Source: Luteimonas sp. YGD11-2
GTDB taxonomy: Bacteria; Pseudomonadota; Gammaproteobacteria; Xanthomonadales; Xanthomonadaceae
Direction: 5' to 3'
Assembly: GCF_004118975.1 (NCBI RefSeq)
Contig: NZ_CP035376.1
Location: forward strand, 1,488,001 to 1,552,000
DNA length: 64,000 bases
Shown here: in pieces, positions 16,192-20,762 of the stretch
Numbering within the stretch: the stretch's first letter is position 1
Layout: every line of letters begins with the position of its first letter
Position numbers and translations under genes: made by a program
Notes under the pieces: model-generated
The model's database searches: none
What the model was told of the DNA's origin: nothing
Seen by the model: the letters and a program-made list of their open reading frames with translations, nothing else

Positions 16192-18546
<2,355 letters not shown>

Positions 18547-18616
18547 TCGCGGCCAGTGTTGTGCAATCGGGACGGACGTGATTCGATTGCGCCCATCGTT
18601 CCATCAGGCGTCGCGC

Positions 18617-19609
18617 ATGCAGGACCTCAACGACCTCTACTATTTCGCCGTGGTGGTCGATCACGGCGGTTTCGCTGCGGCCGAACGTGCGCTCGGCATT
18701 CCGAAATCGCGACTGAGCCGGCGCATCAGCCAGCTCGAGAACGAGCTCGGCGTGCGCCTGCTGCAACGGTCCACGCGCCGCTTCGCCGTGACCGACGTCG
18801 GCCAGAGCGTGTACCGCCACGCGCAGTCGATGCTGGCCGAGGCCACCGCCGCACGCGAGGTGGTCGATCGCCTCAGTGCCGAACCGCGGGGGCTGGTGCG
18901 CGTCAGCGTGCCGGTATCGATCGCGCAGCAGTCGATGCCCAAGCTGCTGCCGGACTTCCTCGCCCGCTATCCGCAGGTGCGGGTGCAGCTGCATGTGAAC
19001 AACCGCCGCGTGGACGTCATCAACGAAGGGTTCGACATCGCGGTGCGCGTGCGTTCCAGGCTCGACGACGACGGCAGCCTGGTCATGCGCAGTTTCGGGC
19101 ATATCCAGGAACTGCTGGTCGCCAGCCCGGAGTATCTGAAGCGGGCCGGGCGGCCGCGCGAGCCCGAGGACCTGCGCGAGCACGTCACCATGACGATGGG
19201 CGAGGACGAGGTGAAGCAGCGCTGGGAACTGCACGGCGGCGACGGCCAGGTGCAGCGCATCGAACTGAAGCCGCGGGTGGCGGGTTTCGACTTCCCGATG
19301 CTGATGTCGCTGGCCCGCCAGGGGCTCGGCATCACCATGCTGCCCGAGACCATCTGCGCCGACGCGGTGCGCAGCGGAGAACTCGAAGTGGTGCTGCCCG
19401 ACTGGACGTTGCCGCAGGGCATCGCACATGCGGTGTTTCCGTCGCGTCGTGGCCTGCTGCCAGCGGTGCGGGTGTTCATCGACTACCTCGCCGAACGGCT
19501 GCCACCGCTGCTCGAGGAATCGAGCCTGGACTGCAAGCATCGCGCGAAGACCGGCGAGCCGCGCGCGCGTGGTACATCCGCGCCGGCCACGCATGCGACA
19601 ATATCCTGA
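18617..19609 (+). CDS. LysR-family transcriptional regulator
   Basis: A 330-residue regulator. The N-terminal winged helix-turn-helix (about residues 1-60) reads DLYYFAVVVDHGGFAAAERALGIPKSRLSRRISQLENELGVRLLQRSTR. The effector domain of periplasmic-binding fold follows (about 90-300). The sequence fits the CrgA/YhjC-like branch, which often controls an adjacent divergent gene, but no such gene is adjacent here. Start 18617 (MQDLNDL) is chosen because similarity begins there; a GTG 39 nt upstream is also in frame. The C-terminal about 25 residues are unusual and run up to the tRNA array. Confidence 0.9.
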   Translation: MQDLNDLYYFAVVVDHGGFAAAERALGIPKSRLSRRISQLENELGVRLLQRSTRRFAVTDVGQSVYRHAQSMLAEATAAREVVDRLSAEPRGLVRVSVPVSIAQQSMPKLLPDFLARYPQVRVQLHVNNRRVDVINEGFDIAVRVRSRLDDDGSLVMRSFGHIQELLVASPEYLKRAGRPREPEDLREHVTMTMGEDEVKQRWELHGGDGQVQRIELKPRVAGFDFPMLMSLARQGLGITMLPETICADAVRSGELEVVLPDWTLPQGIAHAVFPSRRGLLPAVRVFIDYLAERLPPLLEESSLDCKHRAKTGEPRARGTSAPATHATIS

Positions 19610-19621
19610 CCGGTACAGTCC

Positions 19622-19724
19622 GGGAAAATGGCCGAGTGGTTGAAGGCACCGGTCTTGACCCGGAGGCCGGAGGCCGGAGGGAACAGCGGCACAGCCGCTG
19701 GTCGAACCGGCAGTGAGCGATATC
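19622..19724 (+). pseudogene. Broken tRNA-Ser-like unit 1
   Basis: A 5' tRNA-Ser half with acceptor segment GGGAAAA, D arm, and anticodon 5' stem CCGGT followed by CTTGA. A 45-nt insert then leads to GAACCGG and the tail CAGTGAGCGATATC. There is no variable arm, T arm or 3' acceptor strand, so it cannot make a normal tRNA. Confidence 0.8.
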
Positions 19725-19832
19725 GGAGAGATGGCCGAGTGGTTCAAGGCAGCGGTCTTGACCCGGAGGCGCAAGCCGGAGGGAACAGTGGCGCAGCCAC
19801 TGGTCAAACCGCCCTGATGGACAGGAAGTTTC
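19725..19832 (+). pseudogene. Broken tRNA-Ser-like unit 2
   Basis: Its first 45 or so nt are nearly identical to the intact tRNA-Ser(UGA): acceptor GGAGAGA and anticodon stem GCGGT. After CTTGA a 44-nt insert interrupts the loop, then AAACCGCC restores the 3' anticodon stem exactly. The sequence then leaves the tRNA (CTGATGGACAGGAAGTTTC). Its insert stem (GTGGC/GCCAC) differs from units 1 and 3 by paired changes. Confidence 0.8.
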
Positions 19833-19935
19833 GGAAGCGTGGCCGAGTGGTTGAAGGCACCGGTCTTGACCCGGAGGCCGGAGGCCGCAGGGAACAGCGG
19901 CACAGCCGCTGGTCAAACCGGCAGTGAGCGATATC
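19833..19935 (+). pseudogene. Broken tRNA-Ser-like unit 3
   Basis: Nearly a copy of unit 1 from the D arm through the tail, but with a different acceptor-like segment (GGAAGCG). The insert has 45 nt and AAACCGG closes the anticodon stem. Variable arm, T arm and CCA are absent. Confidence 0.8.
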
Positions 19936-20025
19936 GGAGAGATGGCCGAGTGGTTTAAGGCAGCGGTCTTGAAAACCGCCGAAGGGTCAAACCTTCCGTG
20001 GGTTCGAATCCCACTCTCTCCGCCA
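19936..20025 (+). tRNA. tRNA-Ser(UGA)
   Basis: An intact 90-nt class II tRNA with encoded CCA. The acceptor stem GGAGAGA/TCTCTCC is perfect, with discriminator G. The D arm contains GCCGAGTGGTTTAAGGC, the anticodon arm is GCGGT-CTTGAAA-ACCGC with anticodon TGA (19970-19972), the long variable arm is GAAGG/CCTTC, and the T arm is GTGGG-TTCGAAT-CCCAC. It reads UCA and other UCN codons. It directly abuts the third broken unit, so all four are probably on one transcript. serS lies about 1.7 kb upstream. Confidence 0.98.
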
Positions 20026-20052
20026 CTCGGGAATACCGGCCACGCCGACGCC

Positions 20053-20081
20053 TTGCGATCCCCCCGCTGCCTCGCTAGCCT
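20053..20081 (+). promoter_or_regulatory. Weak sigma-70-like promoter before the response regulator
   Basis: TTGCGA (20053-20058) and TAGCCT (20076-20081) are spaced by 17 nt, 33 nt before the ATG. Matches are partial (4/6 and 3/6). Confidence 0.3.
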
Positions 20082-20114
20082 CGTGCGCGGGGAAAGCAGA
20101 GGGAGGGGCCAAGG

Positions 20115-20762
20115 ATGACCATCCGTGTCTTTCTGGTAGACGACCATGCGCTTGTCCGTACCGGCATGCGCATGATCCTGGCCAGCGAAGTCGACATCGA
20201 AGTGGTGGGTGAGGCGGAGACCGGCGAGGCCGCGCTGCCGGAGATCCGGCGCCTGACGCCGGACGTGGTGCTGTGCGACCTGCACCTGCCGGGCCTGAGC
20301 GGGCTGGAGGTGACCGAGCGGATCGTGCGCGGCAAATACGGGCCCCGGGTAATCGTGGTGTCGGTGCTCGAGGACGGCCCGATGCCCAAACGTCTGATCG
20401 ATGCTGGCGCGTCCGGCTACGTCGGCAAGGCCGGCGATGCCAGCGAGTTGCTGCGCGCGGTGCGCGTGGTCGCTGCCGGCAAGCGCTATCTGGCCACCAG
20501 CATCGCCCAGAACATGGCGCTGTCCGCGCTGGCCGGCGACGACAGCCCGTTCGACCAGCTGTCCGCGCGTGAACTCGAGATCGCCATGCTGCTGATCCAG
20601 GGCCTGCGGCAGGAGGAAATCGCGCGCCGGCTCAGCCTCAGTGCGAAGACCGTCAACACCCACAAGACGCGGATGTTCGTCAAGCTGCAACTGCAGGACA
20701 CCATCGCGCTGGCGCGTCTCGCCGGCCAGTACGGTCTGGCGGACCCGACGCACGCGCTCTAG
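20115..20762 (+). CDS. NarL/GacA-type response regulator
   Basis: A 215-residue two-domain regulator. The receiver has acidic residues D9-D10, the phospho-acceptor Asp near 54 in VLCDLHLPG, and the conserved Lys in GYVGKAGD. The C-terminal LuxR-type helix-turn-helix (about residues 145-200) reads LSARELEIAMLLIQGLRQEEIARRLSLSAKTVNTHKTRMFVKL. Overall it resembles GacA/UvrY, which activates small regulatory RNAs, but no sensor kinase, uvrC or pgsA lies next to it, so the pathway is inference. A GGAGGGG ribosome binding site precedes ATG 20115; a bidirectional terminator follows. Confidence 0.9.
   Translation: MTIRVFLVDDHALVRTGMRMILASEVDIEVVGEAETGEAALPEIRRLTPDVVLCDLHLPGLSGLEVTERIVRGKYGPRVIVVSVLEDGPMPKRLIDAGASGYVGKAGDASELLRAVRVVAAGKRYLATSIAQNMALSALAGDDSPFDQLSARELEIAMLLIQGLRQEEIARRLSLSAKTVNTHKTRMFVKLQLQDTIALARLAGQYGLADPTHAL

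Follow-up and report, generated by a model that had tools for sequence, protein, structure and literature searches.

Three interrupted units in front of tRNA-Ser(UGA)

The array lies in a complete genome of 3.22 Mb (G000), of which a stretch of 64,000 nucleotides, referred to here as the window, was analysed. It reads on the forward strand and is flanked by a LysR-type gene (18,578–19,609) before it and a response-regulator gene (20,115–20,762) after it, the functions being taken from the ORF translations. A seryl-tRNA synthetase-like gene, also named from its translation, occupies 16,931–18,211 and ends 1.7 kb upstream of tRNA-Ser(UGA); at one locus from another family (L030, G040) a serS-like 3′ end is located immediately 5′ of tRNA-Ser. 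As the original prediction stated, the array is comprised of three tandem tRNA-Ser(UGA)-type units, each interrupted in the anticodon loop (19,622–19,710, 19,725–19,813, and 19,833–19,922), followed by an intact tRNA-Ser with the anticodon TGA (19,936–20,025). The latter, which scores 62.3 bits with Rfam family RF00005, is the one tRNA that ARAGORN finds in the window, as tRNA-Ser(tga). The other tRNA-Ser genes found in the genome have the anticodons GGA, CGA, and GCT and the intact pattern matches once, so that the intact copy is the only UGA tRNA-Ser seen in G000.

Each unit contains a 37-nt 5′ part of tRNA-Ser, running from the acceptor 5′ strand to A36 and ending in CTTGA, then an insert, and then 7–8 nt of the 3′ anticodon strand. 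In unit 1 these elements are found at 19,622–19,658, 19,659–19,703 (45 nt, two hairpins), and 19,704–19,710 (GAACCGG); in unit 2 at 19,725–19,761, 19,762–19,805 (44 nt), and 19,806–19,813 (AAACCGCC); and in unit 3 at 19,833–19,869, 19,870–19,914 (45 nt), and 19,915–19,922 (AAACCGGC), the resumed strands being read directly. The insertion point falls exactly between A36 and A37 in all three units, confirming that inserts of 44–45 nt share one junction. The inserts score 92.4, 86.1, and 93.5 bits, respectively, with model R1, whose alignment includes these units, and the fold of unit 2 was predicted as well. Comparison of the 5′ parts with the first 37 nt of the intact tRNA gives identities of 32/37, 36/37, and 31/37 for units 1, 2, and 3. 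The prediction, which describes all three units as copying a tRNA-Ser, needs correction in that only unit 2 closely matches the neighbouring gene; units 1 and 3 diverge from it. Their acceptor strand is unlike that of the neighbouring tRNA, and they have a stem CACCGG with a matching ACCGG 3′ strand of their own. A near relative (G017) contains five units that alternate between the two types.

None of the three units has a variable arm or a T arm, in agreement with the prediction, as indicated by direct reading and by ARAGORN, and removal of the insert does not give a complete tRNA. Recognition by SerRS rests on the variable arm, and there is no evidence for the suggested role of the units, which lack this arm, as decoys for SerRS. 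Only tRNA passes the Rfam gathering score, at the intact gene, and no intron family does so; the sub-threshold matches are sX4 over the intact tRNA (27.5 bits against a threshold of 70) and tRNA in the unit 3 region (16.7 against 29). A 99-aa ORF at 19,628–19,927 was rejected as a protein-coding gene, being tRNA-like sequence in all units as judged by reading. Introns in tRNA genes are known as group I introns and as protein-spliced introns of archaea and eukaryotes. Like these, the insert sits in the anticodon loop and its removal would restore the loop. It differs in being 44–45 nt long, in having no tRNA 3′ half after it, and in lying at position 36/37 rather than at 37/38, one nucleotide 3′ to the anticodon, which is the canonical position according to the part of the source consulted (PMC4090602).

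A conserved fold in a short and a long form

The predicted fold of a unit consists of the anticodon stem, a bulged C32, and a TTGA/TCAA extension by which the insert lengthens this stem, leading to a three-way junction that encloses two hairpins. The first of these has an internal loop, GGA/GGA. The folding energy of a single unit is modest (z −1.89, with 12 of 200 shuffles equally good) and that of the array together with the tRNA gives a z of −3.39. Alignment A1 has 20 units, of which one (L050) comes from a metagenome-assembled genome and the other 19 belong to loci of the same genus. Identical repeats of a unit are excluded, as are other genera, fragments at contig ends, the first unit of G017, the unit of G415, which has shrunk, and those of G014 and G027, which are decayed. 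The structure has 22 pairs with 98.9% of cells paired, and 7 of the 22 pairs show changes on both sides. The covariation is 0.260, compared with 0.116 ± 0.012 in shuffles, and controls in which the structure was slid reach at most 45.4% paired cells and a covariation of at most 0.064. The slid controls carry more weight, because related sequences may exceed shuffles without any structure. Further standard pair types are not above shuffles in this alignment (13 versus 14.4). RNAalifold gives a nearly identical fold for A1. Unpaired motifs of the cassette, such as an AAC linker and a GNA/GNA internal loop, are also conserved.

A longer form of the insert, with four hairpins, occupies the same tRNA-Ser site in families f12 and f3 and in genera g51, g70, g45, and g61. 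It is about 70–80 nt in length, apart from four units made longer by extra insertions, and is ordered as hairpin 1, AAC or GAC, hairpin 2, GG, hairpin 3, and hairpin 4. Alignment A3 holds 19 of the 43 distinct long-form units (it omits three with an unrelated first hairpin, both L102 units, three with nested extra insertions, and 16 near-duplicates) and gives a structure of 32 pairs with 96.8% paired and eight pairs changed on both sides; further standard pair types are again not above shuffles (14 versus 14.4). In another alignment of 29 rows (A2), three rows with an unrelated first hairpin are misaligned. In g45, in g61, and in G049, the last judged by reading and not folded, an unrelated stem takes the place of hairpin 1 in the order. 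GGA is present in the loop of the first hairpin in 43 of 43 distinct long-form units (37 by script and six by eye), even where that hairpin has an unrelated stem, and in the loop of the fourth in 41 of 43. The short form in A1 has GGA in the first-hairpin loop of only 2 of 20 units, both from this window and found by eye. At two f12 loci (L121 and L122) an additional short palindrome is nested in the hairpin 4 loop of the tRNA-Ser cassettes. The window inserts are best read as the short form of a composite palindromic cassette found in several families of one order.

Distribution at tRNA-Ser and elsewhere

Interrupted tRNA-Ser(UGA) 5′ halves, searched for as an exact 5′ half whose next base is not A, a pattern that misses decayed units, occur at 57 places in 36 of 398 genomes of the order, with at most five per genome. 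The backwards-read control of this pattern has no match in any row and the window's three-unit array matches a relative at E 9e-113, which together exclude chance. Among 369 genomes across the class, only the window's own genome matches the interrupted pattern. The same pattern with a final A, which marks the intact tRNA, is found in only 32 of these 369 genomes, so the class-wide negative is weak and restriction to the order weakly supported. In this sensitivity control, intact tRNA-Ser(UGA) is detectable in only 28 genomes outside the order. Within the genus, 16 of 41 genomes match R1 under stricter filters; 13 of these have the cassette at a tRNA-Ser array, a count that may miss decayed ones, two have it nested in REPs elsewhere (G034 and G006), and the remaining match (G029) looks like coding sequence. 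At the family level 50 of 395 genomes match R1, a tally that overstates the true cassettes because several weak matches (L136, L137, L139, L143, L145, L147, and L148–L151) resemble coding sequence and are probably due to chance.

The A36/A37 junction is exact in most of the relatives' loci printed, the g70 units reading CTTGC instead. Of 110 oriented tRNA-Ser loci, a set in which many entries repeat one genome, 106 end with the intact copy, and the stretches of the other four show none. Decay of the outer units is seen at several loci of the genus and at some others. The view that this is not ordinary decay was borne out, since fold and junction are kept across genera. The condition under which the prediction was to fail, absence of the array from close relatives and no recurrence of the insert near other tRNAs, has a divided outcome: the array is absent from many relatives and the insert does recur near other tRNAs. 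Several loci show further features. L038 (G055) and L040 (G044) contain tandem tRNA-Ser 5′ halves with unrelated spacers and without the cassette, the G044 tRNA-Ser having another anticodon. An antisense-looking tRNA 3′ end precedes the units in L072 (G379), where it reads GGGGGCAGGATTTGAACCTGC, and, as a variant, in L074 (G303). A tyrosine-recombinase-like sequence downstream of tRNA-Ser(UGA) in L046 (G030) suggests an island at the tRNA, and in the drafts G002 and G010 contigs end inside such arrays.

In model searches of G000 the three window units are the only clear copies. Weaker matches (model E of at least 0.08 and one insert match at E 0.17) led to eight places besides the intact tRNA, most of which look like coding sequence or chance on inspection. 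One of them (G000:C1:667750-667821, L210; E 0.59) has the long-form hairpin order by eye, ends in GAGTC, lies within a 536-aa open stretch, and is possibly a divergent second copy. At another (G000:C1:1892991-1893071, L212; E 2.6) a GGCAGGATGCC hairpin is found on the opposite strand just past a tRNA-like 3′ end. Several copies per genome are found in g51 and in many f12 genomes. Three g51 genomes have 12 (G091, two being tRNA-Ser units), 13 (G182), and 4 (G156) matches to R1, and the dispersed g51 copies that were read interrupt variants of the palindrome GTCATTCCCGCGAAGGCGGGA-cassette-ATCCAG. The long model finds matches in 132 of 197 f12 genomes, in many of them at more than one place; no more than 21 candidates were scored in any one genome. 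Twenty stretches, a non-random choice of f12 matches that are not tRNA-Ser(UGA) 5′ halves, show the cassette in REP-like palindromes, in tRNA-Gln T-loops, in short tandem repeats, and in hairpin clusters. ARAGORN finds a tRNA in nine of the 20: Ser CGA in four, Gln CTG in two, and Ser TGA, Ser GCT, and Gln TTG in one each. In L192 (G665) and L198 (G671), copies of tRNA-Gln(UUG), or their 3′ parts, stand in tandem, and the long cassette lies in their T-loop between TTCGA and ATCC; in L198 the intact tRNA-Gln gene comes first, unlike the order at tRNA-Ser. An insertion place after GA is common to the anticodon loop, the T-loop, and the REP-like palindrome. Clusters of differing hairpins are located past the terminator-like end of tRNA-Ser or tRNA-Gln genes in L185, L186, L190, L191, L195–L197, and L203, several of them bounded by antisense-looking tRNA 3′ end pieces.

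These distributions bear on two other accounts of the array. One, which the prediction had listed, takes the units as remnants of repeated site-specific integration with the attachment site in the anticodon loop. It would account for the exact junction repeated each time and for the intact tRNA being last, as expected if 5′ halves stay behind, and in L107 (G448) a further tRNA-Ser 5′ half, after one unit, enters unrelated AT-rich DNA just past CTTGAAA, as though the anticodon loop had been invaded by an element, with no intact copy following in the stretch. However, the halves are separated by a short cassette of several hairpins that is conserved and shows compensatory changes, rather than by deletion remnants, and the same kind of cassette is also found in T-loops and REP-like palindromes. 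Apart from L107, the loci read contain only cassette and leader-like spacer between the halves, with no integrase gene, no mobile-element DNA, and no DNA of integrase size. A long-form unit had no match in phage or plasmid searches, and carriage by either was rejected. The window array matches 13 plasmid-collection records, the ten listed ones through a 41-nt stretch taken for E. coli tRNA-Ser. Integration is thus a highly improbable origin. The other account, neutral tandem duplication in which palindromes are corrected by template switching at hairpins, would give covariation with neither function nor transposition, and hairpin-templated correction could mimic compensatory change. It fits with tandem units being nearly identical within genomes and with the spacer between units resembling a tRNA leader in some loci. 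By itself, however, it leaves unexplained both the cassette at many other loci and the conserved unpaired motifs, and we regard it as quite unlikely.

Clustering of the cassettes by site was examined in a tree of 60 rows and 77 columns, of which 13 of 55 inner branches are firm. It omits four long tRNA-Ser units, the stretches L191, L192, L193, and L198 of the 20, cassettes with nested extras, and tRNA-Gln cassettes. The label tRNA-Ser versus other changes four times on the tree, compared with 17.7 times in shuffles (0 of 500 as low), a clustering that near-copies inflate. In four f12 comparisons from three genomes, the similarity of tRNA-Ser cassettes is 76–80% to a dispersed copy within the same genome and 93–99% to tRNA-Ser cassettes elsewhere. 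The corresponding values in g45 are 73% and 92%, and the g45 dispersed cassette of L144 (G085) is identical to that of L141 (G127). In two g51 comparisons, both made with one genome, the tRNA-Ser cassette is most similar to a dispersed cassette from a different genome, and this speaks against a strict split between tRNA-Ser and dispersed cassettes.

Repeats of the REP type (GTAG and CGTC superfamilies) are described, in the part of Di Nocera et al. 2013 (PMC3733652) consulted, as short imperfect palindromes that are dispersed and lie mainly outside genes; insertion of some REP dimers into other palindromes is reported, CGTC REPs are without a dedicated transposase, and REPs are placed in tRNA-synthetase and tRNA-modification genes, that part naming no tRNA gene. 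The cassette is likewise a short imperfect palindrome able to fold as a hairpin, with dispersed copies in g51 and many f12 genomes, some of them nested in other palindromes, and with only the three units as clear copies in G000. In contrast to REPs, each of which is a single palindrome with a tag, it consists of two to four different hairpins in fixed order and lies in tRNA anticodon and T-loops, in tandem with tRNA pieces. By reading, the palindrome that surrounds the dispersed copies in g51 resembles the CGTC type, and in some dispersed copies CGTC stands before this outer palindrome only. No GTAG or CGTC tag was read on the end of the cassette itself, which starts with CCC, TCC, CGC, or CTGCG and mostly ends in GTC or GTA; because this tag is missing the cassette was not filed as a REP, and it works like a nested palindromic repeat. 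Rickettsia palindromic elements (105–146 bp), which the part of PMC2229807 consulted places in RNA genes including tmRNA and M1 RNA, are also palindromic elements inside an RNA gene. Compared by description rather than by sequence, they differ in host and in length, and they lie in the RNA gene itself, whereas here an intact tRNA remains adjacent. Of the options in the original prediction, a repeat-generating palindromic element targeting tRNA-Ser came closest; the palindromic family is upheld and the specificity for tRNA-Ser is not, the cassette also occurring in REP-like palindromes, in tRNA-Gln T-loops, and next to further tRNA-Ser and tRNA-Gln genes. Literature searches found no description of the interrupted tRNA-Ser and cassette arrangement, which is not proof of its absence.

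Proposed origin and possible role

The reading we favor, with a probability of roughly 60%, is that a REP-like palindromic cassette became lodged at an early time in a duplicated tRNA-Ser(UGA), was multiplied in tandem, has been inherited vertically, and may be transcribed in the leader of the intact gene. We infer that a redundant copy of tRNA-Ser(UGA) would have received the cassette in its anticodon loop, at the A36/A37 junction, and that this interrupted copy would then have lost its 3′ half. The block of leader, tRNA 5′ half, and cassette would have multiplied by tandem duplication, through slippage or unequal crossing over, with the intact last tRNA being kept. The chimeric locus would since have been passed on vertically with its fold maintained. 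An extended −10-like sequence, TGCGACAAT (19,594–19,602), contains GACAAT at 19,597–19,602, a candidate promoter of the tRNA-Ser precursor, and most of the same-genus loci printed have a TGCGACAAT-like sequence ahead of their first unit. This box suggests that the array is transcribed together with the tRNA; a consensus scan of 19,400–20,120 returned no sigma-70 site. With a possible promoter on one side and the intact tRNA on the other, the array may form a structured leader of the transcript, which RNase P would perhaps remove. A structured RNA processed with the tRNA, as the prediction had suggested, is thus possible judging from the position of the array.

Signs of mobility were not seen, neither a target-site duplication nor a transposase nor a pair of empty and filled strains. 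Y1 transposase (PF01797) is present in 11 of 16 chosen genomes and has no match in G000, G008, G608, G1050, and G1116, some of the genomes being drafts. A RAYT as the mover of the cassette is not supported, G000 being without a Y1 transposase match. Two further points count against the favored reading. A merely selfish element in G000, where no other clear copies are seen, might be expected to decay, and the shared grammar in spite of an unrelated first hairpin (g45, g61, and G049) fits selection on RNA shape equally well.

Selection of this kind would apply if the array were a leader RNA, in which the transcribed D-arm and extended anticodon arm with its hairpins bind something and tandem copies raise the dose. 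Candidate partners would be processing enzymes, a tRNA-binding protein, or RsmA/CsrA through the GGA loops. The long-form loops resemble CsrA/RsmA sites. GGA motifs and hairpins, here in the long-form loops, are also features of sRNAs that sequester CsrA/RsmA, such as RsmU (PMC7694677, in the part consulted), a likeness that the short form, mostly without a loop GGA, does not share. The same part of that paper reports no significant homologue of the known CsrB/RsmX–Z-type sRNAs in sequenced Xanthomonas genomes, which counts in favor of this reading. The compensatory changes at the tRNA-Ser site, retention of the array in G000 without other clear copies, the clustering of cassettes by site, and the GGA loops of the first (43/43) and fourth (41/43) long-form hairpins all speak for a leader RNA. 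On the other hand, the short form has GGA in the first loop of only 2 of 20 units, dispersed copies elsewhere have identical loops, and the cassette is seen at tRNA-Ser in only 13 of 41 same-genus genomes (decayed ones may be missed), which indicates that it is dispensable. We therefore consider a selected leader RNA doubtful, and its RsmA version is kept as a minority reading because the short form mostly lacks the loop GGA and the dispersed copies share the loops. A related and bolder proposal would be a class of chimeric leader RNAs, spread over several families of the order and recruited from a palindromic mobile cassette, in which the anticodon stem of a tRNA-Ser(UGA) 5′ half has become a multi-hairpin platform that is freed by RNase P, is set by growth rate, and uses its GGA loops to bind a regulator, RsmA for example; this we hold to be improbable.

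The favored reading, a REP-like cassette lodged in a duplicated tRNA gene, explains the broken tRNA-Ser copies in these genomes. The array is an instance of a family of palindromic repeats nested in tRNA loops, which several genera carry with its fold preserved at a single essential tRNA locus. Two questions thereby become accessible to testing: by what route REP-like palindromes insert when no transposase is obvious, with hairpin loops as targets, and whether such palindromic repeats become functional RNA. If the class of chimeric leader RNAs proved true, tRNA synthesis, and with it growth rate, would set the level of a regulator-binding hairpin RNA.
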